Positions 8,844-44,075 of a DNA stretch of 64,000 bases are shown here, in pieces (position 1 is the first letter of the stretch; each line of letters begins with the position of its first letter). The translations under genes were made by a program, and so were the position numbers. Origin of the DNA: a virus. Location of the stretch: positions 1 to 64,000 of IMG/VR virus record IMGVR_UViG_3300032053_000042. One strand, 5' to 3'. The notes below the pieces were generated by a model that saw nothing but the letters and a program-made list of their open reading frames with translations, made no database searches and had not been told where the DNA came from.

Positions 8844-11162
8844 TTACTTTAGCTTAACTAGGTTACCCCAACGACCGCCAATCTCTGCGGACGCCCTGAA
8901 TGGAACTAACGGACCCCAGATCTCAAGGCCAGAGCGTGCCATAATAGCTACGCCCTCTCGAGCAACCTCTTCGATATGCTCTGTAGGGGCTTCTAGGAGA
9001 ATAGAGTCGTGCACCGTGAGAAGAATGTGTGCTCTACCAGCGAGCTCACGATGAATAGCTATCAACGATCTCAAGGTGGTATCCGAAGCGCCCGACTGAC
9101 ATAGAAAATTGATTGCTTGTCTTTCCACCTCTAAAATGATATCGTCTGTTCTTAATGGAAAGCGCCTGCGTCGACCAGTCTTGGATTCCACATAACCCTG
9201 TGCACGTACCAACCTCTTGATACTCTCGGTCCATCTCACTACTCCAGGAATACGTTCGAAGTACCGTGTAATAAACTCCTCGGCTACCCGCTGCGAGAGG
9301 CCTGGTAGGTTAACATCCTTGGCAAGAGCTCGAGCTGTTCTACCGTACGGCAGGCCGAAGTTTACGGTTTTCGCGAAAAACCTTTGTCTTGATGTGTAGT
9401 TAGGACCAAAGAGCTCTACAGACGTTTCATTGTGTAGATCTCGATCTCCCTGGTACACCTCTACAAGAAATGGATCTTCAGATAATGTAGCAAGCACACG
9501 TAGCTCAGCTTGGCTGAAGTCAAGATATGCTAACGACATTCCTTCGCTGGCTATATATAGGTTCCTAATCTGACTACCGTACGGGTCGCCTTCATCAGAT
9601 GGAAGGTTCTGTAAATTCGGGTCCCTTGACGATAGTCTACCTGTGACAGTGCTGAATAACATGAAGTTCGTATGTAATCTACCACTCGGATCCACACGCC
9701 GCTGTGCACCCTCGATGTAAGTTCCTAAGAGCTTCGACAAGTGACGGTGCTTGACTAAAGCTTTTAGTACGGGCTGGTCGAATCTCGTTGCCAGGATAGC
9801 TAGAGCATCCTTATCAGTAGAACGCCCTTCTATCGTGGGAAGACCAAGAATGTCAAACAGATAAGTAGCTACTTGTCTTGTCGACGCCGGATTGATACGA
9901 TAGCCAACGACCTTCTCTATCTGGCTCTCTAGCTGAACAAGCTCCATGTTCCACTGTTTAGCGGTAGCTTCGGCTCGTTCTAGGTCGATCCGAATACCTC
10001 GTACTGCAACGTCGGCTAGGGCGGTAGAACCAGGTACAAGAAGCTCCTTGACTAGTCGAAGCTGTGCTGGAGCTTTACTAAGACGCTTCACCATCAGGTC
10101 AGTTAGCCTTCGTGTGTACCAACCGTCAAAGGCAGCGTATTTGTATAGAACGCCCTTAGGTAACAAGGCGTATGAGTCTGTCTTCGGCTTGGTTAGGTAC
10201 TTCGTTATATCCGCTTCCCAGTCCGGGGCGTCAAATAGTCTAGCACAGAGTAGCTTTAGATCGTTCGTACCTCGCTCGTCGAGAGCATAGTGAGCGAGCT
10301 GAGTATCAAAAGAGAACACAATGTCGACACCCAACTGTGCCTTAAGAAAAGCACGATCGAACTTGGATCCATGCCCGACCCACTTAACCTTGCAGGCCTG
10401 AAGAGCTTGCGCGAATTCAGGAGTGTAGATCACCTCTTGCTGAATCACGAAGATACTCTCCACAGTACCCACCACTACGCACAAAATCTTGTCCTGGCCG
10501 TAGCGAAAGCCTGAAGTCTCGAGATCTAGAATTGCATAAGGGCTTCGTTCTGCTGCCGCAAAGGCCTTAGCAAAGTCCATAGTAGCCTCTGCCTGTGGAC
10601 GCTCTTCTGCCTTTGCCTCTGCCTCAGCCTCACCGGAGACTTCTCGAGCAGCCTTTTGTAAGTCGGCTGTGAAGTCTGGGTACAGATCAGCGCCACGAAG
10701 GATAGCAGCTGGATGATACGTAGGTAAGACCTTTGTACCGAGTTCAGCTGAGTCGACGATCTTGCCGCGTCTTACTGAGATCCCTGTGATAGCGCCACCA
10801 AGGAGGGCATGAGTAGGAATGTTGCCTAAGGTCACGACGATCTTAGGCGCCTTTGCCTTGATCTCTGCCACTAGACGATCCCGACAGCACAGTGACGCAG
10901 CTTCTTTCATAGCCACGTCTGGTACGTAGCATAGACATGCATTAGTGATCCAGGCAGTGCTGGCCAGCTGGTAGGCATCCAGACAACGTCGTAGAAGCTC
11001 GCCGCTACGTCCAATAAAGACCTTGTTAAGGCGAACTTCATCGTGTCCCGGAGCCTCGCCTACAAAGACTATCGAAGCAGTTCCACTAGGACCACGAGGT
11101 GGAACTAGTGCATACGTTTTGAGAGGACACGAATCACATTTAGCGAGAGGTACTTTCTCCAT
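8844..11162 (-). CDS. Uracil-DNA glycosylase / family A DNA polymerase fusion
   Basis: It encodes 772 residues. Residues 1-~175 form a family 4-type Fe-S uracil-DNA glycosylase: C9/C12 plus C78 and C92/C93 as cluster ligands, 'GEAPGHDE' (35-42) and 'LPTYHPAAIL' (H150). An Ala/Glu-rich linker follows. A 3'-5' exonuclease domain has Exo I 'ILDLETSG', Exo II 'GHGSKFD' and Exo III 'YAAFD'. The polymerase has motif A 'LDFSQAELR', motif B 'RQRFFAKTVNFGLPYG' and motif C 'LLTVHDSILLEAP'; the O-helix has Phe, as in E. coli Pol I. UDG-containing phage polymerases are known (e.g. SPO1). The product should remove uracil and copy DNA with proofreading. Confidence 0.92.
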   Translation of the reverse strand: MEKVPLAKCDSCPLKTYALVPPRGPSGTASIVFVGEAPGHDEVRLNKVFIGRSGELLRRCLDAYQLASTAWITNACLCYVPDVAMKEAASLCCRDRLVAEIKAKAPKIVVTLGNIPTHALLGGAITGISVRRGKIVDSAELGTKVLPTYHPAAILRGADLYPDFTADLQKAAREVSGEAEAEAKAEERPQAEATMDFAKAFAAAERSPYAILDLETSGFRYGQDKILCVVVGTVESIFVIQQEVIYTPEFAQALQACKVKWVGHGSKFDRAFLKAQLGVDIVFSFDTQLAHYALDERGTNDLKLLCARLFDAPDWEADITKYLTKPKTDSYALLPKGVLYKYAAFDGWYTRRLTDLMVKRLSKAPAQLRLVKELLVPGSTALADVAVRGIRIDLERAEATAKQWNMELVQLESQIEKVVGYRINPASTRQVATYLFDILGLPTIEGRSTDKDALAILATRFDQPVLKALVKHRHLSKLLGTYIEGAQRRVDPSGRLHTNFMLFSTVTGRLSSRDPNLQNLPSDEGDPYGSQIRNLYIASEGMSLAYLDFSQAELRVLATLSEDPFLVEVYQGDRDLHNETSVELFGPNYTSRQRFFAKTVNFGLPYGRTARALAKDVNLPGLSQRVAEEFITRYFERIPGVVRWTESIKRLVRAQGYVESKTGRRRRFPLRTDDIILEVERQAINFLCQSGASDTTLRSLIAIHRELAGRAHILLTVHDSILLEAPTEHIEEVAREGVAIMARSGLEIWGPLVPFRASAEIGGRWGNLVKLK

Positions 11163-11171
11163 TAGATCCTC

Positions 11172-11303
11172 CTATTGTAGCTTGAATATGTGTAGGAAGG
11201 CGTAGACAATTGCGGTAATGACACTCAAGAACACTATCATTATCGCCGTAACGATGATCATGTCAGCACAGAATCTCGCAGCCTCGAGAAGTCGTTTACG
11301 CAT
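11172..11303 (-). CDS. 43-residue single-span membrane protein
   Basis: A short frame starts one base after the stop of the upstream gene, with GAGGAG just ahead. It encodes a basic N-terminus (MRKRLLEAAR), a ~25-residue hydrophobic segment (MIIVTAIMIVFLSVITAIVY) and a short tail. The fit between the flanking genes, the ribosome binding site and the clean membrane segment make it likely to be real. Function is unknown; small membrane proteins like this are common among phage early genes. Confidence 0.6.
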   Translation of the reverse strand: MRKRLLEAARFCADMIIVTAIMIVFLSVITAIVYAFLHIFKLQ

Positions 11304-12182
11304 CTACTCCTCCTCGGTCGTCAACTGTACCACGTCTTGCTCGTCCTCTCGTAGCGTATGACCGATTCTACCAACGCAGAAGTCCTTGTACTGATCGATG
11401 TTCCACTGGATAACCGGATTCATTTGCACAGGCGTGAGGAAGTCAGCGTGGCGATGTCCCGCTACAGGAGGCGATACTGGCTCCGTCAGGCGTGGACTGT
11501 AAGTTCCTTGAATACCCCAACGTACTGGCAAGCCTGTATCCATCGAGCGTACGTAGGTTCGTGGCTGTACATACCAACCCTGCGAATACTCGTGACATTG
11601 ACAGCGAGTACTAAGCCCATAAGCTTCTCGCAGGTCCCGCCAGCAGCCCAGCATGTGGTATTGTCGATTGGGATCAATGAAGCCCATGTCTTCCAGCGAG
11701 TCTAGCAGACCAACGCGGCCGCCTTGGAATAAGTCCGAATCGAACATGGAGACACCAATGATATTAACTTCTGGTACTTGTAACAACCTTAAGTAACACA
11801 TCATCCAGTCTGCCACGTTAGATCCGTGTGGTACGGCTATAAGCTTAAAGTTAGGGGAGACAATCATCAAATGCTGGTATGCATCGAGACCTTTCACCGT
11901 AGCTTCATAGGAAGCCTGACCATCTCCTAGCACGTCTGGAAGGATAAACTCCTTAGCGTCCACCATCCCAGCTGCTATCGCGACCATAGAAACTGGTAAG
12001 CTTTTACCTTGTTCGACCACACCGTTATCCACACCAACGAGGACTCCTTGCCAGCTCTGTTGTTGGTAGAACTCTCGATACGCTTCGGACTCGAGAATGA
12101 GATGACTCAGGACAAGATGGTAGTTACCCTGTGCAGCGCATTGGTCTAGTAAGCTGATAGGTGAAGCAATTCCGCAAAGCAT
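11304..12182 (-). CDS. dpdA: DpdA-like DNA 7-deazaguanine transglycosylase (TGT fold)
   Basis: It encodes 292 residues with the pattern of the phage branch of tRNA-guanine-transglycosylase-like proteins: 'GVLVGVDNGVVEQGK', 'FILPDVLGDGQASYEAT', 'FKLIAVPHGSNVADW', 'YHMLGCW' and 'VRSMDTGLPVRWGIQG' followed by 'GHRHADFLTP'. DpdA enzymes exchange guanine in DNA for a 7-deazaguanine base. FolE, QueD and QueE, which make the precursor, lie 3-5 kb away in the same train, which strongly supports the call. The candidate catalytic Asp are those in 'VDNG' and 'SMDTG'. Which base is inserted cannot be read from the sequence; no QueC is seen, so 7-carboxy-7-deazaguanine or a host-completed preQ0 are both possible. 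Confidence 0.8.
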   Translation of the reverse strand: MLCGIASPISLLDQCAAQGNYHLVLSHLILESEAYREFYQQQSWQGVLVGVDNGVVEQGKSLPVSMVAIAAGMVDAKEFILPDVLGDGQASYEATVKGLDAYQHLMIVSPNFKLIAVPHGSNVADWMMCYLRLLQVPEVNIIGVSMFDSDLFQGGRVGLLDSLEDMGFIDPNRQYHMLGCWRDLREAYGLSTRCQCHEYSQGWYVQPRTYVRSMDTGLPVRWGIQGTYSPRLTEPVSPPVAGHRHADFLTPVQMNPVIQWNIDQYKDFCVGRIGHTLREDEQDVVQLTTEEE

Positions 12183-12183
12183 G

Positions 12184-12528
12184 TTATTCTCCTTCCTTCA
12201 GATCAGGCATATATATCGCACCACACATACCGTCTTCCGAGACTCTAGCTCCTGTGCAAGTCAGGTCAAGATCTAGTGCATACTCATACAAGAACTTAGC
12301 CATAGTCTCGCAGCTAGAGCCCTCATTGGCGTCCAAGAAGCTCATCAGCTGCTGTCTACACTGCTCTGCGAGTTCGAGGAACTCAATCTCTCTGTCGTTA
12401 ACCACGACGATGTTTACCAAGAACACGAACTCATGCATATGAAGCTTCGACAGATATAGGTACTTCTCAGGAGCGGAGGCCCACCTGTGGAAGCCTATCC
12501 ACTTTCCAACGACTTGTAGGATGATCAT
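12184..12528 (-). CDS. Small PTPS/QueD-like protein, divergent
   Basis: It encodes 114 residues; the start at 12528 is set by an ATGA overlap and a GGAGGG site, not the longer frame. The order 'GFHRWASAPEKYLYLSKLHMHEFVF' split as 'HRW', 'APEKYLYL' and 'LHMHEF', then 'DREIEFLEL', 'SCETMAKFLYEYAL' and 'VSEDGMCGA', matches a small phage/actinobacterial family that resembles 6-pyruvoyl-tetrahydropterin synthase (His-x-His metal site, Glu near the end). The catalytic Cys of true QueD is not evident. It is directly upstream of dpdA and may act on a deazaguanine or pterin intermediate; that role is inferred. Confidence 0.5.
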   Translation of the reverse strand: MIILQVVGKWIGFHRWASAPEKYLYLSKLHMHEFVFLVNIVVVNDREIEFLELAEQCRQQLMSFLDANEGSSCETMAKFLYEYALDLDLTCTGARVSEDGMCGAIYMPDLKEGE

Positions 12529-12866
12529 TTCGGTCCCTCCGTCTCCAGGCGGTGCTCCTCTTGACGACGATAGGCCCACATCATTGCGCAATAGTTCATG
12601 ATATCCAGCAGTTCGTCGTCGATCTTTTCCTCGAGGCCAAAGTACTGAAGCTCGGTAGCCTCTTTACGCTGGAGCATAGAAACTAGCCGAGCGCACTTAT
12701 GAAAGATCATAGTAATAAAGGACTTCTCACCAAAGCACATCTTCTCCCAGGGAAACATAGCTGCATCGCGTACTACAGAACGATTCGATACGATCTTGTG
12801 CGCCTCTTCCAAAGCCCTGTCGAAGTTAATCCAGAACATGTCCAGATCTTGTTGTCGCTTACTCAT
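12525..12866 (-). CDS. Nmad1/DUF1599-like protein
   Basis: It encodes 113 residues, mostly helical. The stretch 'FGEKSFITMIFHKCARLVSM' and 'DDELLDIMNYCAMMWAYRR' corresponds to the MazG-like family called nucleotide-modification-associated domain 1 (DUF1599), usually found next to base-modification genes. Its C-terminal codons (EGPK) contain the ribosome binding site of the next gene. The location beside dpdA fits a role in nucleotide handling for DNA modification; biochemical activity of the family is unknown to me. Confidence 0.55.
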   Translation of the reverse strand: MSKRQQDLDMFWINFDRALEEAHKIVSNRSVVRDAAMFPWEKMCFGEKSFITMIFHKCARLVSMLQRKEATELQYFGLEEKIDDELLDIMNYCAMMWAYRRQEEHRLETEGPK

Positions 12867-12886
12867 GTTTCTCCTTTCTACTGTAT

Positions 12887-13369
12887 CTACTCATACCAAC
12901 GCATTAACCACTGGTCCGGAGTACGATCGCCTTTATGATGATTACACATCCAACAGGCTGCTACTAAATTACTTGCTGTCGTGTCACCTCCTAACACTAG
13001 TGGCACTACGTGATCGATCACTCTGTAGAATCGTGCGCTGTCTTTAAGGAAAAGTCGACCACAGTAGAAGCACTTGCGCTTTCGAAGTAACTCGCCTAGC
13101 TCTTCTCGAGTTAACTTCATTACTCGGTTAGCTTGTTTAGTTCGGTACACGAGCCCACTCCATATGGTAGTCACTTTCCCTGTAGGAGTCGCACGATACT
13201 TTTTACCTTTGCTAGCAACCGCTTCAGCTGCTACGCACTTCTTACAAAGGGTCTGCTTCCTATCTTCCGCTATTTCAGAAGGTCCAAAGTCAAGCCTCAT
13301 CAACTTCTTCTGACAGCGAGGACATATCTTAGATAGATACTCATCCTTCCAAGATCGCTTACATGGCAT
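12887..13369 (-). CDS. HNH endonuclease
   Basis: It encodes 160 residues. The C-terminal half is a classic Cys4-HNH: 'CFYCGRLF' ... 'VIDHVVPLVLGGDTTASNLV' ... 'ACWMCNHHKGDRTPDQW'. The N-terminal part has an extra pair of Cys-x2-Cys (CPRCQKK, CKKC), likely a second zinc site. It overlaps the 3' end of the second polymerase by 11 bases. It could be a homing endonuclease that invaded the polymerase locus or a packaging/recombination nuclease; the absence of an intron argues for a free-standing gene. Confidence 0.85.
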   Translation of the reverse strand: MPCKRSWKDEYLSKICPRCQKKLMRLDFGPSEIAEDRKQTLCKKCVAAEAVASKGKKYRATPTGKVTTIWSGLVYRTKQANRVMKLTREELGELLRKRKCFYCGRLFLKDSARFYRVIDHVVPLVLGGDTTASNLVAACWMCNHHKGDRTPDQWLMRWYE

Positions 13370-15245
13370 CTAACCAACTCCTTCCTGTAGCTGCGTGCAC
13401 CTTCAAAGGCGCGTCCAACTTATAAGGGCTCACCATAGCTTCAGAGACTAGCTTTGTAGTCGCTTCAACCTCGTCCACAGGTACCTCGAGTAATAGCTCA
13501 TCATGAACTTGTAGAACCATACGACTATGCAGACCCGAACGCTGTAGCTCTCGATCTACAGTAATCATCGCTATTTTCATAATGTCTGCAGCCATTCCTT
13601 GGATCGGCATATTTATGGCCGCTCGCTCTGCCGAGCGACGTAGACCGGGAGGCGTATTAGAGCTCGGTAACAGCTCAGGAAAATAGCGCTTACGCCCGAG
13701 CAACGTTTGCACATATCCATGAGCCCGAGCGTACTGCACTGTGTTACGAAAGTAATCTCGTACTCGAACAAAGCGTGAGAAGTAAGCCTCAATGAATTGT
13801 CTTGCCTCCTGTACGCTTCGTTCTGTACGTTCTGCTAGTCCTTGCTCGGAGATACCGTACATAAGCCCGAAATATATTCGCTTCGCTAGGGTACGCTGTG
13901 CATAAGTCACCTCCTTGAGTGGGATGTTAAAGAGCTCCGATGCGGTACTAGTATGTACGTCAACTCCTGCAGCAAAGGCAGCTAGTAACTTAGGATCCTG
14001 CGTGATGTGCGCCAAAATACGTGGCTCTATTTGCGTATAATCACAACTCAGTAGTACGTGACCTTCTGGTGCTATAAACGCACCTCTGATTCTACGGCCT
14101 AAGTCTGTGCGCGTTGGTACCTGCTGCAAGTTCGGATGGCTCGATGAAAGCCTTCCGGTACGAGTACCAGTCTGATTTAGTGAAGTATGTACACGCCCTG
14201 TGCTAGGATTAACTAGTAAGGGTAGAGCGTCGATGTAGGTAGTCATCAACTTGGATAGCTGGCGCTGTTCCAGGATAGGTCCAATGATCGAATGCTTACC
14301 CTTTAGGAATGTCAGGACTCGGATACTCGTCGAGAAGTCGCCACGATATCCCGACAGACCTAGCTCACCAAAGAGCACCTTACCTAACTGCACAGGTGAG
14401 TTGATATTAAACTTATGGCCAGCTATTTGATGGATCTGTTCTTCGGTGTTCTTTAGCTCCTGTCTCAATTCTACTCCCATCGTTCGTAGATAGGGCTGAT
14501 CAATAATCATCCCATACGTCTCCATACGCTTGAGGACCTGTATTAGAGGCATCTCTATCTCATTGAACAGTCTACGTTCTGGCTCCTGCTCGACTAGAGG
14601 TTGGAGTGCCTGCATCAAGCGTAAGGTCATATCGACATCGGCGCAGGCGTAGCGAGCTACTCTAGTGGTACTAATCAGATCCATACCATAGCCAGGACCT
14701 AGAAGCTCGTCGATCGATGTCATTGTACACCCCAGGCGTCGAAGAGCCTGGTCCTTCAGGCCTAGGTGATGTGCTACTGACTCGACCAGCCATGCAGCGA
14801 TCATAGTATCGAACACAGGCCCTCCTAGAGGTAGGCCATGTCTTTCGAGAATTTTCATGTCGAACTTGATATTGTGTCCGACCTTACCGATGCCCTCACT
14901 AGCTAGTACAGGCCCAAGACGAGCCTGTACTAGCTCAAGGGAAAGTTGCTGACCAAGATGTATCAGCGTACTGTGCCCGACTGGTAGATAGAACGCAGTC
15001 CCTGGCTCGCGCGATAGGGAGATGCCAACTAGCTTATCGATCATGGCATTAGTACCTGTGGTTTCGGTGTCTACAGCTAGCCCCTGTGCTCCACGTAAGT
15101 ACTCGAGTAGCTGGTCCAAGGCTTGCTCAGTGTCTACTATTTGGTAGGCACCAAACCCTCGGATGTCGCTTACGTCGTTGGGCCACAAGGGCAGCTGGAT
15201 ATAGCCCTGGCGAGACATCTTAAGCTTATTAGGTCGCTTGGCCAT
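13359..15245 (-). CDS. Second family A DNA polymerase with 3'-5' exonuclease
   Basis: It encodes 628 residues; the start at 15245 follows a GGAGCG site and does not overlap the upstream stop. The exonuclease domain has 'LAVDTETTGTNAM' (Exo I), 'VGHNIKFDMKIL' (Exo II) and 'YACADVDMTLRL' (Exo III). The polymerase has motif A 'SCDYTQIEPRILAHITQDP' (Pro where Leu is usual), motif B 'RTLAKRIYFGLMYGISEQG' and motif C 'VLQVHDELLLEVP'. It lacks the glycosylase domain of the first polymerase and is clearly a separate lineage, not a recent duplicate. Two complete, proofreading family A polymerases in one phage suggest divided labour. Confidence 0.92.
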   Translation of the reverse strand: MAKRPNKLKMSRQGYIQLPLWPNDVSDIRGFGAYQIVDTEQALDQLLEYLRGAQGLAVDTETTGTNAMIDKLVGISLSREPGTAFYLPVGHSTLIHLGQQLSLELVQARLGPVLASEGIGKVGHNIKFDMKILERHGLPLGGPVFDTMIAAWLVESVAHHLGLKDQALRRLGCTMTSIDELLGPGYGMDLISTTRVARYACADVDMTLRLMQALQPLVEQEPERRLFNEIEMPLIQVLKRMETYGMIIDQPYLRTMGVELRQELKNTEEQIHQIAGHKFNINSPVQLGKVLFGELGLSGYRGDFSTSIRVLTFLKGKHSIIGPILEQRQLSKLMTTYIDALPLLVNPSTGRVHTSLNQTGTRTGRLSSSHPNLQQVPTRTDLGRRIRGAFIAPEGHVLLSCDYTQIEPRILAHITQDPKLLAAFAAGVDVHTSTASELFNIPLKEVTYAQRTLAKRIYFGLMYGISEQGLAERTERSVQEARQFIEAYFSRFVRVRDYFRNTVQYARAHGYVQTLLGRKRYFPELLPSSNTPPGLRRSAERAAINMPIQGMAADIMKIAMITVDRELQRSGLHSRMVLQVHDELLLEVPVDEVEATTKLVSEAMVSPYKLDAPLKVHAATGRSWLDAM

Positions 15246-15246
15246 G

Positions 15247-15570
15247 TTATCGCTCCACATCCGGAACGTAGACTAGATGGCCCTTCGACATATCTATTAG
15301 GACGCTACGCGCTGGCCAGCCGTATATGAGAATAGCATAGTCACCTTCAATACCATCGACTCCGCCAAACCCTTCATCTAGTACTTGGTATGAAACACCC
15401 TCCGGAGCAGATAGAATTATCCTTCCTTCGCTCTCTGTAGGAGGTGTAGTCGTAACGTGCACTATTCTTCGTTCAGGCCACTTGACTGGCTTACAGCTAT
15501 CTCCTGGGCGAGGGCTAACATGAATGACTCCTGGCAGTTCGTGTAAATACTTATTAAGAGCGTCGCTCAT
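15247..15570 (-). CDS. Unknown protein between polymerase and folE
   Basis: It encodes 107 residues behind a GGAGG site and ends two bases before the polymerase start. The sequence is beta-rich and Pro-rich ('GVIHVSPRPGDSCKPVKWPE', 'GDYAILIYGWPARSVLID'). I recognise no domain. Its place between folE and the polymerase puts it in the deazaguanine/replication group. Confidence 0.5.
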   Translation of the reverse strand: MSDALNKYLHELPGVIHVSPRPGDSCKPVKWPERRIVHVTTTPPTESEGRIILSAPEGVSYQVLDEGFGGVDGIEGDYAILIYGWPARSVLIDMSKGHLVYVPDVER

Positions 15571-15573
15571 TCG

Positions 15574-16185
15574 CTACCTCCGTAGGCTGGACTGATGAAC
15601 GAGACTCATGAACTCGTTACGAACTGCTACCTTTGAGAAGCACCCACGAAAGCCACTAGTGACTGTGAGATGCCCTGGACGCTCCACTCCACGAATGGCC
15701 ATGCACATGTGCTCAGCTTCGATCATTACTCCTACGCCATGCGGATGTAGCTGCTCCCACATAAACGTCGCGATCTTAGATGTTAGATCCTCTTGTATGG
15801 ATAGTCGATGGGCGTAGTGGTCTACAATACGAACTATCTTACTGATACCGCACACCGATAGCCACGGTAGATAGCCTACATGAGCATAGCCTACGTACGG
15901 TAGGCAGTGGTGTGCACATATCGACGCGAACTGGATATGAGTGACAGTTACCATTCCTGGGTCGTCACCGCGTCCTACCGGGAATACTGTAAAGTCGATG
16001 GGTTCCTGCTGCTTGGATAGGAACTCGATCATAGCGTCCGCAGCTCGCACTGCTGTGTTTTTGCCACTGGGACCGCTACACATAGCGGGAATCTCTTCAA
16101 TCTTGTATCCCAGAGCGTAGAGAAAGTCCTCGTAGGCCTTAATAGCTGCACCACGAGCGATACCGAGCGTTGGTTTGATTGTCAT
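15574..16185 (-). CDS. folE: GTP cyclohydrolase I (FolE)
   Basis: It encodes 203 residues; the start at 16185 overlaps the queD stop (ATGA) and has an AGGAG site. Zinc ligands are conserved with the family spacing: C90, H93 and C161 ('SICAHHCLPYVGYAHVGYLP', 'EAEHMCMAIRGV'). Other signatures are 'VCGISKIVRIVDHYA', 'QEDLT' and 'TVTSGFRGCF'. The enzyme turns GTP into dihydroneopterin triphosphate, the first step of both folate and 7-deazaguanine synthesis. The neighbours queD and queE show that here it feeds 7-deazaguanine. Confidence 0.95.
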   Translation of the reverse strand: MTIKPTLGIARGAAIKAYEDFLYALGYKIEEIPAMCSGPSGKNTAVRAADAMIEFLSKQQEPIDFTVFPVGRGDDPGMVTVTHIQFASICAHHCLPYVGYAHVGYLPWLSVCGISKIVRIVDHYAHRLSIQEDLTSKIATFMWEQLHPHGVGVMIEAEHMCMAIRGVERPGHLTVTSGFRGCFSKVAVRNEFMSLVHQSSLRR

Positions 16186-16655
16186 AAGTATAGCTCCTGT
16201 GGTACATCGACCTCCACCCAACAGTCAGGGGTCTCCGATATTCGTACCATTACAAGTCGAACTGGATGGTAGACTTGCATCCTTGCCCTTAGCATGGTGA
16301 TAATCTCCTTAGCCATATTCTCAGCCGTTGGTGACTGAGAATGAAACTCGATGCAGTCGTTTAACAACTTATGATCGTAGTGAGCCTTTACCACCTCGAA
16401 GAGCCCCTTTAGTACACTGAAGTCTATAACCATTCCGTTCTTCAGAGGCCCTGCGACGCATACTTCGATAATGTAGTTGTGTCCATGCACGTTCCCGCAA
16501 TGTGGATGACCTGGCAAAAAGTGTGCACAGCTGATAACGAAGCGCCTCCATACTCGTACCTCAGAAGCCTTTGTGTACCTTACTTCTTCCTGTTGCATCA
16601 TAAGTGTTCCCAGCGAGATTGGTGTCTTTGAAGTCGACTCTGATACTTGTTCCAT
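16182..16655 (-). CDS. queD: 6-carboxytetrahydropterin synthase (QueD)
   Basis: It encodes 157 residues. Zinc His are H45 ('CAHFLPGH'), H57 and H59 ('CGNVHGHNY'), with catalytic Cys C53, the D94-H95 pair ('YDHKLLND') and Glu E141 ('ISETPDCW'). The first ~35 residues are a longer than usual N-terminal extension; an internal Met near residue 19 could be the start instead. The enzyme makes 6-carboxy-5,6,7,8-tetrahydropterin from the FolE product. It is coupled to folE by a four-base overlap. Confidence 0.93.
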   Translation of the reverse strand: MEQVSESTSKTPISLGTLMMQQEEVRYTKASEVRVWRRFVISCAHFLPGHPHCGNVHGHNYIIEVCVAGPLKNGMVIDFSVLKGLFEVVKAHYDHKLLNDCIEFHSQSPTAENMAKEIITMLRARMQVYHPVRLVMVRISETPDCWVEVDVPQELYL

Positions 16656-16667
16656 GTTTCTCCTTTC

Positions 16668-17294
16668 CTACCTTATTCCAATGAACTTATGTAACTGGAC
16701 GCTCAAACGCCAGTTCTTCTTGATACACTCCTCGTAGCACAGCTTAGTAGCCGAGGAATCTTGGCTCTCGGGCTGCAAGCAGATCGTTGCGTGTCCACGA
16801 AGAATGTGCTGGAGGTGGTCAATAAGAAACTGATTTACCAGGTCGAGATCCTCCTGAAAGCCTACGACAAACTTCAGCTCATCCGCCGTAAGTAAATTCG
16901 GGATAAGTATCCTGTTCCCGCCAGGAACATTAAGCTTAGGCGAGATGCAAACCCAGTCTATCCCACGAGGAATGGGAAGAGTACCGTTCGTTTCCAGAGC
17001 GGTGTTCCTCCCGATTGCATTTAGCTCGCTACACAGCTCGTCGAGAGGTTGCATGGTTGGCTCTCCTCCCGTGATCATCACCCACTGGATACCTGGAAAC
17101 TCTTTAACCTTCTCCACGATGGTTTCCACGTCCATTGCTACTCCACCCTTAGACCAAGTATACTTGGTATCGCAGAAACTACAGGTCAAGTTACACCCTT
17201 GCATTCGTATGATAACCATAGGAATGCCTGTATTACACCCCTCTCCCTGGACGGCACTGTAAATCTCGTTAATCTGATAGTAGAAACTAGGCAT
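16668..17294 (-). CDS. queE: 7-carboxy-7-deazaguanine synthase (QueE), radical SAM
   Basis: It encodes 208 residues behind AAAGGAGG. 'YSAVQGEGCNTGIPMVIIR' is the family's N-terminal signature, and 'GCNLTCSFCDTKYTW' is the radical SAM cluster motif (C34, C38, C41). 'MITGGEPTMQP' and 'ALETNGTLP' follow. The enzyme contracts 6-carboxytetrahydropterin to 7-carboxy-7-deazaguanine. With folE and queD directly downstream it completes a GTP-to-CDG pathway. QueC, which would make preQ0, is not found in the window. Confidence 0.95.
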   Translation of the reverse strand: MPSFYYQINEIYSAVQGEGCNTGIPMVIIRMQGCNLTCSFCDTKYTWSKGGVAMDVETIVEKVKEFPGIQWVMITGGEPTMQPLDELCSELNAIGRNTALETNGTLPIPRGIDWVCISPKLNVPGGNRILIPNLLTADELKFVVGFQEDLDLVNQFLIDHLQHILRGHATICLQPESQDSSATKLCYEECIKKNWRLSVQLHKFIGIR

Positions 17295-17308: not shown

Positions 17309-19792
17309 TCACTGGACGTCTAATGTAATCTCACTGAAAGGGCGTAACCTCTTCGGAACATCTAAGCCCTCAAGCTCGGCCTGCTCTACCTTCACTCCTA
17401 CGCATCGCTGAGTACGTGATCCCGTGCCGATGTATTGCTCTGGCATTATGTAGGAGCCTTGAAGTTCTCGAAGCTGCGATCGCACGGCTTGAATTTGCAA
17501 CAGTATACGCCCCTCTCTTCGGCGTTTAGCAGCCCACCATCCCCATGCGCCAGTTAGGTGGAACCATAAAATGTTCTGCTGTACGTCGTAGTACAGGAAG
17601 TATGCTGGCATTGGTGGAATCTGGCTGGCATAGGCGACCACGTCCTCGATAAAGTCGTCGACCAGGATTCGGGTACGTCCTGAAGTCGAGCTCACTAAGG
17701 TCCGCTCAAGGATATGTTTCCACGTCTCGCCTAAAACTTCCATCTGTGTTCCATTATACTCCATTGCGTGCGCGTTATACATCTTCAGGCCACACAGGAC
17801 CACAGCTAGGTTACGTCGTATTCTATCAGGCATCGACATTGGTAGCAGCATCTGAAGATCAGCAAGAGCTGTATCGAACATCAACTTCACCGAGCTCGAG
17901 GTCTCCCGAAGAGTTCGCTGGATATAGCGACCTGCAAAGTCTACAAGGCGTAGACGCGTCAAGGCTAGGAAGGCCTTATACGTTGCACTACCCTCCTGAC
18001 AAGGACCTAAGCTCATATTCACTACCACAGAGCGCTCTCGTATTGCAGGATCGCTAAAGGCGTCCTCTCCATCCACACTAAAAGGAGCGTCAAGATCGTA
18101 GCTTTGTGTCGTCTGATCAGGCCTACCACGAGAGTCTCGACCTACGTCATAAGCGCGTCGTGCTACATCTAGGAACTCTTCTTGGCCGTGAGCTGCTGTA
18201 TCTCTGAACTCCCCGAAGGAGATAGGTACAGCATTCGTACTAGCCATCATTGACAGCAGCACGAACATCCGTGTCTTCGACGGGTAAGCTCTTGGCTCCT
18301 TCCAGCCTACGAGAGGCTGTAGAACTCGTAACAAGGTACTTGACTTTCCACTACCTTGTGTTCCATAGACGTTAAGGATAGGAAACCTCTCTCCAGCTTC
18401 CTGCAGAAGCCCTTTAATCGGTGCAGCGAAGAACCATCCTACCATAGGTGCTATTACTTCCAGGTAGTTGATCTGTGGAAGGAGCTCGGTTATGGCCTTT
18501 ACAAGCTTTCTATACTCATCTGCTGGTGGAAAGGTATATACTACACTAGGAGTCTCTCTACCGCTGGAGAGAAAGACATATGGAGCTTCGTCACTAGGAT
18601 ACACAGTCTCCGCATCGAACACGCATTCGGGAGCGACCCATAGGTTCTCGTGCCGTCCTATGACTGATACTCCATGTGCGTGTGGTAAGCCAATATCATA
18701 TAGCTGATCCATAAGATGAGGTAGCCAAGCTTTTACCTCTCGATCGCTAGCTAGCCACTGCCACGAAGCTACGTGCAGATGCCTTCCTAACGCGTTTACA
18801 CTATTGAACGCCGACTTAGGAAGCGCTACGCCTGACCATGTAAAGTTATGTGAGGTGATGTCACCCAAGATCTGATCCTCGCTATCGTTGCCGTCGACCT
18901 TAATCAGCTTACGTGGCTTGAAGATAAAGGTTGCGACCTTCATAACTCCCTTGGAGGTCTTGTAGCATAGCTCTCCATCCTGCTCTATGAAGTCTGCCAC
19001 TGCAGCTACCTTTGGTTTCTGTAGTCGTGCAGACTCAATTGTACGGTCTAGGTACTGGTCTCCTCCACGCTCTGTATATCGATCTCCTACAGGTAATATC
19101 TGAAACAGGGTGTGGATACCGCTCTCAGAGACACTCACATGTAGGAACTCCTTTACTGCCCAGAAGTCCCTCTCGCTGCGAGACTTAAATCCTTGATTGC
19201 CGCCTTGCCAAAGCTTCTTAACTACGAGCTTGGATAGCGTCGTCAGAGCCAACACATCCGAGGCCTTGTAGATAGCTCTCTCGTTCGTAGACTTCATTGT
19301 CACAGGTACTGGGTGTTCAGGGACCTTATAGTTAGTAGTACCAGGCACCCGTAGTATCCACTTTGCGTTGTAAGTCCTTCCGCCTGCTCCAGCTCCGTGC
19401 GCCTGCCATAAGGCTCTCATTAGTTCGCCAGCTCTCTCGGAGTCAACAGGTTCAATCAAGTTCCAGTATAAGTGATATCCGTGCCCACTCGCTACCTGAT
19501 AAGTAAATGGAACAGGTGGACTTCCGCACAGCTTGTCTAGCTCGCCCTCAGGAAAGTCCTTTGAGTCCAGGTCTAGCCACACCACGGGAACCCTGGTAAC
19601 TTTTTCTACGTCCGTTAAGGCTCTTGGCGCCACACCGAAGTACGCATCGCCCTTTTCCTCGTTCATTGAAGCTGCAATAGCTAAGGCTTCCGGTACGCTT
19701 CGGGCCAGCCTACGCCTGTGAGGGGTAGGCGAGAAGACGAGAATCCCTTCCTCAGCTGTTAGGTCGCTGAAGATCGCTTCCAACAGTCCCAT
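17309..19792 (-). CDS. Primase-polymerase/helicase replication protein
   Basis: It encodes 827 residues. The N-terminal ~185 residues look like an archaeo-eukaryotic-type primase/PrimPol: 'VVWLDLDSKDF' (DxD, residues 74-76) and 'SGHGYHLYWNL' (102-109), with 'WILRVPGTTNYK'. The C-terminal half is an ATPase: Walker A 'VYGTQGSGKSST' (477-484) and 'VPISFGEFRDT'. This layout matches plasmid/phage primase-helicases that both prime and unwind. No clear ribosome binding site precedes the ATG, which overlaps no gene; the upstream exonuclease ends two bases away on the other side. It is the only primase/replicative helicase candidate here. Confidence 0.8.
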   Translation of the reverse strand: MGLLEAIFSDLTAEEGILVFSPTPHRRRLARSVPEALAIAASMNEEKGDAYFGVAPRALTDVEKVTRVPVVWLDLDSKDFPEGELDKLCGSPPVPFTYQVASGHGYHLYWNLIEPVDSERAGELMRALWQAHGAGAGGRTYNAKWILRVPGTTNYKVPEHPVPVTMKSTNERAIYKASDVLALTTLSKLVVKKLWQGGNQGFKSRSERDFWAVKEFLHVSVSESGIHTLFQILPVGDRYTERGGDQYLDRTIESARLQKPKVAAVADFIEQDGELCYKTSKGVMKVATFIFKPRKLIKVDGNDSEDQILGDITSHNFTWSGVALPKSAFNSVNALGRHLHVASWQWLASDREVKAWLPHLMDQLYDIGLPHAHGVSVIGRHENLWVAPECVFDAETVYPSDEAPYVFLSSGRETPSVVYTFPPADEYRKLVKAITELLPQINYLEVIAPMVGWFFAAPIKGLLQEAGERFPILNVYGTQGSGKSSTLLRVLQPLVGWKEPRAYPSKTRMFVLLSMMASTNAVPISFGEFRDTAAHGQEEFLDVARRAYDVGRDSRGRPDQTTQSYDLDAPFSVDGEDAFSDPAIRERSVVVNMSLGPCQEGSATYKAFLALTRLRLVDFAGRYIQRTLRETSSSVKLMFDTALADLQMLLPMSMPDRIRRNLAVVLCGLKMYNAHAMEYNGTQMEVLGETWKHILERTLVSSTSGRTRILVDDFIEDVVAYASQIPPMPAYFLYYDVQQNILWFHLTGAWGWWAAKRRREGRILLQIQAVRSQLRELQGSYIMPEQYIGTGSRTQRCVGVKVEQAELEGLDVPKRLRPFSEITLDVQ

Positions 19793-43089: not shown

Positions 43090-43125
43090 GTGCCTACTCG
43101 TATCCATCGAACCAAGCTTGCCTAA
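43090..43125 (+). CDS. 11-residue leader peptide coupled to the next gene
   Basis: A GTG stands six bases behind a perfect AGGAGG and opens an 11-codon frame (PTRIHRTKLA after the start) whose TAA overlaps the ATG of the next gene. That gene has no site of its own, so ribosomes probably reach it by termination-reinitiation. The peptide is basic. Confidence 0.5.
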   Translation: MPTRIHRTKLA

Positions 43126-44075
43126 TGCTAGACATCGCCACACTTAGGCAGCGTCAGAGCTTACCTTTGGAAGCAAAGGTCATGATGTCTCTACACAAGA
43201 TCAGGGAATGGTACGACCGCTGGCGTGGTCAAGTGTACGTTGCGTACAGCGGCGGTAAGGACAGCACAGTACTACTTCACCTAGTACGACAGTTTTACCC
43301 AGAAGTTCCTGCAGTGTTCAACAATACGGGCCTAGAGTACCCAGAAATCTTGGAACAGGTACGTGGCACAGAAAGCGTTGTATGGCTAAGGCCGAAGTAC
43401 TCATTTAAGGAGTGTTGCACCCGATGGGGTTTTCCAGCAGTAAGCAAAGAGGTATCTGACAAGGTACAACGTATCAGGAACACGAAGGACGAGCAGCTAA
43501 GGCAGCTATGGATGTACGGCAGGAATGACCAGGGAAGAACGACGATATTACGATTAAGCGATAAATGGCATTTTCTATTGCAGGCCCCGTTTAAGATAAG
43601 TCCTAATTGCTGTATACATCTAAAGAAGAATCCAGCTAAGCATTATGAGGGAGAAACCGGCTTGTGGCCGATGTTAGGTACACTAGCAGAGGAAAGCCTA
43701 GGACGCACAACGGAATACCTCCGCTTTGGTTGTAATAATTATACTAATAGCCGACCTAAAAGCACTCCGTTAGGCTTCTGGACAGAGCAGGATATACTAC
43801 AATATATTACACGGGAAGGGCTAAAGATTGCAGCAGTTTATGGCGACATAGTAGAGACCGATGGCCGTCTTCGTTGCATAGGCGAAGACAGAACTGGATG
43901 TATAGCGTGTCCCTTTGGTTGCCACGCTGGAGTACAAAACAGTTTTCAACGAATGGCCATAACTAAGCCGAAGTTACTTAACTGGATACTCGATGACCTA
44001 AGTATGCGACAAGTTCTTGACTTTACTGGAATTCCCTACACGGCACAGGATGTAGGATCTGAAGCTACATACTAG
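43125..44075 (+). CDS. PAPS-reductase family protein (N-type ATP pyrophosphatase)
   Basis: It encodes 316 residues. 'QVYVAYSGGKDSTVLLHLV' is the PP-loop, and 'ISPNCCIHLKKNPAKHYEGE', 'PMLGTLAEESLGR' and 'TGCIACPFGCH' are further signatures of the phosphoadenosine-phosphosulfate reductase/DndC-like family. These proteins activate a substrate with ATP and transfer sulfur or reduce sulfate; phage members have no settled role. It is not QueC, whose motif pattern (GGQDS, C-terminal zinc Cys set) is different. It stands alone before the terminase genes. Confidence 0.8.
   Translation: MLDIATLRQRQSLPLEAKVMMSLHKIREWYDRWRGQVYVAYSGGKDSTVLLHLVRQFYPEVPAVFNNTGLEYPEILEQVRGTESVVWLRPKYSFKECCTRWGFPAVSKEVSDKVQRIRNTKDEQLRQLWMYGRNDQGRTTILRLSDKWHFLLQAPFKISPNCCIHLKKNPAKHYEGETGLWPMLGTLAEESLGRTTEYLRFGCNNYTNSRPKSTPLGFWTEQDILQYITREGLKIAAVYGDIVETDGRLRCIGEDRTGCIACPFGCHAGVQNSFQRMAITKPKLLNWILDDLSMRQVLDFTGIPYTAQDVGSEATY

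Follow-up and report, generated by a model that had tools for sequence, protein, structure and literature searches.

Bases 1 to 64,000 of a 76,123-base virus record in IMG/VR (IMGVR_UViG_3300032053_000042, classed linear), hereafter the window, carry a gene cluster for a 7-deazaguanine DNA-modification pathway that includes a transglycosylase and lacks QueC, an assignment that is well supported. The cluster belongs to a long leftward block on the minus strand, which runs in the order QueE, QueD, FolE, a 107-residue open reading frame (ORF), a family A DNA polymerase (PolA), an HNH endonuclease, a DUF1599-like protein, a QueD-like protein, a DpdA-type transglycosylase, and a fusion of uracil-DNA glycosylase (UDG), exonuclease and PolA. 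The genes with a proposed role in the pathway are these:

16668-17294, minus strand: QueE, 7-carboxy-7-deazaguanine synthase (TIGR04322, 1.4e-51; phrog_2076, 7.7e-40)
16182-16655, minus strand: QueD, 6-carboxytetrahydropterin synthase (PF01242 (PTPS), 2.8e-31; TIGR03367, 1.3e-24; matches E. coli QueD 4ntm)
15574-16185, minus strand: FolE, GTP cyclohydrolase I (PF01227 (GTP_cyclohydroI), 5.7e-47)
12184-12528, minus strand: QueD-like T-fold protein of 114 residues (phrog_17812, 1.8e-8; homologs; AlphaFold2 model; hhalign)
11304-12182, minus strand: predicted short DpdA-type DNA guanine transglycosylase (tblastn; invariant residues; fold match of an AlphaFold2 model)

FolE, QueD and QueE constitute an established route to 7-carboxy-7-deazaguanine (CDG) (PMC13329287). 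In the window, the CX3CX2C motif of QueE is intact, QueD keeps its catalytic residues C53, H57, D94-H95 and E141, and FolE keeps C102/H104/H105/H171/C173, including the zinc ligands C102/H105/C173 (numbered in a 215-residue frame). That FolE frame begins at TTG 16221; an ATG at 16185, which overlaps the QueD stop, is the likelier start. Family matches and the residue check thus agree with an earlier note on this DNA, which had placed the three genes here with full catalytic residues.

The protein at 11304-12182 has no match in Pfam or NCBIfam, and a scan of viral contigs with its sequence alone returned zero relatives; the relatives considered here were drawn from a phage collection and from a QueE scan. 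Its relatives by tblastn include proteins of Weizmannia phage Youna2 (6e-12), Flavobacterium phage immuto (3e-9, annotated as DpdA), Bacillus phage BSTP12 (2e-9), Cellulophaga phage phiST (1e-7) and Campylobacter phage CP220 (2e-4). A homolog is clustered with FolE, QueE and QueD in phiST, Youna2, immuto, BSTP12 and Chryseobacterium phage MA9V-3, and the window gene shares an operon with 7-deazaguanine synthesis genes. Residues D52, D83, H176, G179 and D215 are invariant across 13 short-DpdA sequences, and its position in the motif suggests that D215 is the nucleophile. The AlphaFold2 model (mean predicted local distance difference test (pLDDT) score, 74) has tRNA-guanine transglycosylases (TGTs) as its top matches in the PDB (Foldseek E 1e-6); it aligns with Z. 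mobilis TGT at a Z-score of 17.3 and a root-mean-square deviation (r.m.s.d.) of 3.6 over 247 residues, and it also matches the DpdA structure 7ui4. A sequence profile of the DpdA alignment found no TGT in the PDB, the likeness having come from fold comparison only. The earlier note had named a position outside the TGT/DpdA fold as the result that would count against a transglycosylase; the predicted model instead adopts the TGT fold. This short type is reportedly the 'DpdA3' of Cui et al. 2023.

No QueC (PF06508) was detected in the whole 76,123-base record, using a profile that matched 12 of 14 bacterial and archaeal control genomes at E<=0.001. The best trace was a stretch of 39 residues in a 3'-phosphoadenosine-5'-phosphosulfate (PAPS)-reductase-like protein (E=0.014). 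The absence that the earlier note had reported is therefore borne out for the window and for all 76 kb. Its suggestion that QueC might lie outside the window does not hold for the remaining 12 kb, where tail-like genes were found, and could be true only beyond the end of the record. Of the preQ0-type pathway (FolE-QueD-QueE-QueC-DpdA; Hutinet 2019), QueC is thus missing from the 76 kb of a record that may be partial.

The gene set given in the earlier note was incomplete, because it did not list the QueD-like gene that lies directly upstream of dpdA. The ORF call for this gene begins at TTG 12591; ATG 12528 has an upstream Shine-Dalgarno-like GGAGGG and, within the sequence ATGA, overlaps the stop codon at the end of the DUF1599-like gene. 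At its other end, the gene stops 1 nt short of the dpdA ATG. For the AlphaFold2 model of the protein (pLDDT 90.4), the best solved structures are E. coli QueD and related 6-pyruvoyl tetrahydropterin synthase (PTPS) enzymes (Foldseek E 1e-4), with a Z-score of 12.0 and an r.m.s.d. of 2.3 over 106 residues against E. coli QueD; hhalign of the family profile against phage QueD gave 93% (P 3.4e-7).

QueD enzymes use zinc ligands, a Glu that anchors the pterin, a catalytic Cys and an Asp-His pair. Like members of the QueD/PTPS family, the QueD-like protein has the T-fold, and it retains the three histidines that bind zinc and the Glu that anchors the pterin: when it is aligned to E. coli QueD, H14, H30 and H32 coincide with the zinc ligands, and E98 takes the position of the Glu in the KET motif. 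By contrast, the catalytic Cys and the Asp-His pair are missing from the protein in that alignment and from its family, which is why we call it QueD-like and not QueD; a proper, full QueD is encoded separately in the same phage. Positions that are invariant in 41 QueD-like sequences include H14, H30, H32, R46, E49, S72, C73, E74, E98 and D99, and R46, E49, S72-C73-E74 and E98-D99 set the family apart from QueD.

Homologs of the QueD-like protein include gp040 of phiST, the C-terminal part of MA9V-3 XQU63047 and genes in two further loci (L009 and L023 in our numbering), each near DpdA and pathway genes. Scanning viral contigs with the QueD-like family sequence alone yielded 71 phage loci. Loci were then scanned with a profile for each pathway gene, giving 76 QueD-like loci, window included; FolE, QueD, QueE or DpdA lies within the stretch in 75 of them. 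Across these data, QueC and the QueD-like gene are mutually exclusive: QueC occurs in none of the 76 QueD-like loci, and the QueD-like gene in none of the 11 QueC loci. The same holds for whole records, as none of the 45 that have a QueD-like gene contains QueC over the family cut-off, and for the complete isolate genomes of phiST, MA9V-3, Xanthomonas phage X1 and Pseudomonas phage PA5oct, which have the QueD-like gene and no QueC over the cut-off. The reverse pattern, QueC and no QueD-like gene, was found in Youna2, BSTP12, immuto and CP220. The QueD-like gene pairs with three types of transglycosylase, namely the short DpdA (13 loci), a second type (5 loci) and a DSGGFQ-bearing type of about 530 residues (52 loci). 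In the tree of short DpdAs, in which deep support is low, QueD-like carriers stand on at least three branches and are interleaved with QueC carriers.

We propose that the QueD-like protein replaces QueC in a pathway that the phage otherwise encodes itself, and we lean towards this reading as a whole with somewhat better than even confidence. FolE, QueD and QueE of the phage would make CDG from GTP, and the QueD-like zinc T-fold protein would take over from QueC in processing CDG; the likeliest reaction is loss of the carboxylate, which leaves 7-deazaguanine. DpdA would then put that base into phage DNA in exchange for guanine, by way of a covalent intermediate on an Asp (proposed to be Asp215), and the exchange would protect the phage genome from host nucleases. 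The base that ends up in the DNA is probably 7-deazaguanine itself, or else another form without the cyano group. Because the zinc-binding histidines and the pterin-anchoring Glu are retained, a 2-amino-4-oxo-pyrimidine ligand such as CDG would suit the protein; given the conserved Glu, the QueC-replacing distribution and the location of the gene beside a transglycosylase, the protein would most simply act on CDG. Decarboxylation is favoured as the reaction, since neither an ATP site nor a nitrogen donor is apparent. The broad interpretation in the earlier note (a 7-deazaguanine pathway with a transglycosylase and no QueC) therefore stands, but its three explanations for the missing QueC, which were insertion of the carboxy form, a host QueC and a QueC outside the window, omit the best-supported one, the QueD-like gene beside dpdA.

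Several points weigh against this proposal. The Fisher test of mutual exclusion over 87 loci (p = 6e-9) calls for caution: the loci are not independent, most of them coming from a few phage lineages. Decarboxylation of CDG by the QueD-like protein is proposed from chemistry and from a reported prediction of such an enzyme. A glycosyltransferase (group 1 family) is found near the QueD-like gene in 57 of the 76 loci, and on plain 7-deazaguanine a sugar would have no obvious point of attachment. The product may therefore differ in the glycosyltransferase-linked phages: either the glycosyltransferase has another target, or C7 still bears a functional group after the QueD-like protein has acted. 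This bears on the main rival, in which DpdA inserts CDG itself to give dCDG, and the QueD-like protein, instead of decarboxylating CDG, carries it, shields it or raises its production. A carboxylate would provide an acceptor group for the neighbouring glycosyltransferases of related phages, and the lack of QueC in the record fits direct insertion as well. dDG and dCDG have reportedly both been described in phages, by Cui et al. in 2023. On its own, however, direct insertion leaves unexplained why a zinc T-fold protein with invariant R46, E49, SCE and ED is retained where QueC is missing, and we consider it unlikely, albeit worth weighing seriously.

The linear class of the record also counts against our proposal, in that the genome may be partial, and it lends something to the idea that QueC lies in an unassembled part of the phage genome; in immuto and CP220, too, QueC sits away from dpdA. 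We regard this as very improbable: QueC adjoins QueD, QueE and FolE in QueC-positive loci, whereas the window cluster is complete and flanked on both sides without it, and the complete genomes of phiST, MA9V-3, X1 and PA5oct likewise have no QueC over the cut-off. There is a smallish chance that a host QueC converts CDG into preQ0, which DpdA then inserts. QueC is indeed common in bacteria and archaea, as the control genomes illustrate, but with a host enzyme there would be no reason why QueC and the QueD-like gene should exclude each other across 87 loci, and Youna2 and BSTP12, relatives with the same DpdA type, encode a QueC of their own. The least probable candidate, with next to no chance in our estimate, is the PAPS-reductase-like PP-loop protein at 43125-44075 performing the QueC step. 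It has a PP-loop motif (SGGKDS), a cysteine cluster in a Cys-rich tail and the weak local QueC signal given above, but it is encoded 26 kb from the cluster, close to the terminase and on the opposite strand, and matches PF01507, not PF06508. Its family is missing from 24 other records, 21 of which have a QueD-like gene. We rejected it as a QueC substitute on the PF01507 match and on this absence.

Among known systems, phiST resembles the window in having FolE, QueD, QueE, a QueD-like gene and a short DpdA in a complete genome with no QueC over the cut-off. The surroundings differ: the phiST cluster includes MazG-like, P-loop kinase and PolIII-type polymerase genes, the window DUF1599-like, HNH and two PolA genes. 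The two DpdA proteins share only 22% identity. Youna2 and BSTP12 are like the window in having QueD, QueE, FolE and a short DpdA followed directly by a PolA relative of the window UDG-PolA, but they encode QueC and have no QueD-like gene. The 7-deazaguanine phage without QueC is a known kind, represented by phiST and by Mycobacterium phage Bipper, which was noted as QueC-less by Hutinet et al. 2019 (PMC6884629), to which the window phage adds a new and remote member. We did not find the either/or of QueC and the QueD-like gene, its three transglycosylase types or its glycosyltransferase-linked form (jumbo phages, Magnetospirillum) stated in the literature searched. A predicted CDG decarboxylase, DpdL, is said to feature in Cui et al. 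2023, and its proposed step, from CDG to 7-deazaguanine, is the one that we assign to the window protein. No entry in Pfam, NCBIfam or PHROG names this protein as DpdL, and in the literature searched the name does not appear together with 7-deazaguanine. The QueD-like family may be DpdL; in that case the enzyme has a name already, and the present analysis adds just its distribution.

The remaining genes of the block are as follows:

15247-15570, minus strand: protein of 107 residues, function unassigned (open frame in the operon)
13359-15260, minus strand: family A DNA polymerase with 3'-5' exonuclease, PolA (PF00476, 2.6e-140; PF01612, 4.3e-25)
12887-13369, minus strand: HNH endonuclease (PF14279, 6.8e-13; phrog_1035, 1.1e-17)
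12525-12866, minus strand: DUF1599-like protein, nucleotide modification associated domain (weak PF07659, 9e-4, under the curated cut-off)
8844-11162, minus strand: fusion of family-4 uracil-DNA glycosylase, exonuclease and PolA (PF03167, 9.5e-21; PF01612, 1e-14; PF00476, 2.2e-86)

By their family matches, both of the polymerases that the earlier note had counted in the gene set are real. PolA relatives of the fusion adjoin the same DpdA type in Youna2, BSTP12 and locus L020. The UDG-PolA gene of L020 (3484-6585) contains an apparent in-frame intein-like insert, which the window copy does not have. Motif C reads VHDS in the window fusion versus VHDE in PolA. Models of the aminoadenine polymerase DpoZ match both polymerases far below cut-off, and a Z-genome is not suggested. 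The 107-residue protein has no family match in Pfam, PHROG or NCBIfam and no credible homolog among phages, and a homolog search with the DUF1599-like gene gave no useful result. Next to the block, a primase-like protein (17309-19792) has the primase of Halorubrum virus CGphi46 as its top partial match (4e-19); the best matches of the window terminase are likewise archaeal viruses.

The QueD-like gene was also seen in other settings. In PA5oct (L118, 5122-10450) and X1 (L117, 3128-9232), DpdA-like, glycosyltransferase, QueD-like and QueE genes follow in close order, in genomes with no QueC over the cut-off. In bacterial contigs from Magnetospirillum (L103, L104, L106 and L109), Verrucomicrobia (L112), Aurantimonas (L115) and Deltaproteobacteria (L116), it is found near genes for a glycosyltransferase and a large DpdA-like protein, and often QueD as well; these are possibly islands or prophages. 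In Streptomyces sp. NEAU-Y11 (L110 and L111, around 9881-11600), QueD-like, QueD and FolE genes adjoin with no DpdA in the stretch, and this could be a natural-product cluster for a 7-deazapurine.

A more far-reaching reading, which we offer tentatively and hold to be rather doubtful, is that the QueD-like family is an unrecognised CDG-processing enzyme that works alongside three kinds of DpdA and replaces QueC in a number of phage groups unrelated to one another, as well as in some cellular genomes. Its glycosyltransferase-linked subset (57 of 76 loci, together with the P. aeruginosa jumbo phage PA5oct and clusters of this sort in Magnetospirillum genomes) would then give rise to a 7-deazaguanine in DNA that is new and probably glycosylated. 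More generally, the missing QueC turns from an assembly worry into a testable rule, by which a phage has QueC or the QueD-like gene and, in these data, never both. From it one can predict in which phages a non-cyano 7-deazaguanine should occur, and it could be checked in the cultured phages phiST, X1 and PA5oct and in relatives of PA5oct such as Callisto and Paride. If the QueD-like protein does decarboxylate CDG, it would represent a zinc T-fold route to 7-deazaguanine and a new activity for the QueD fold.

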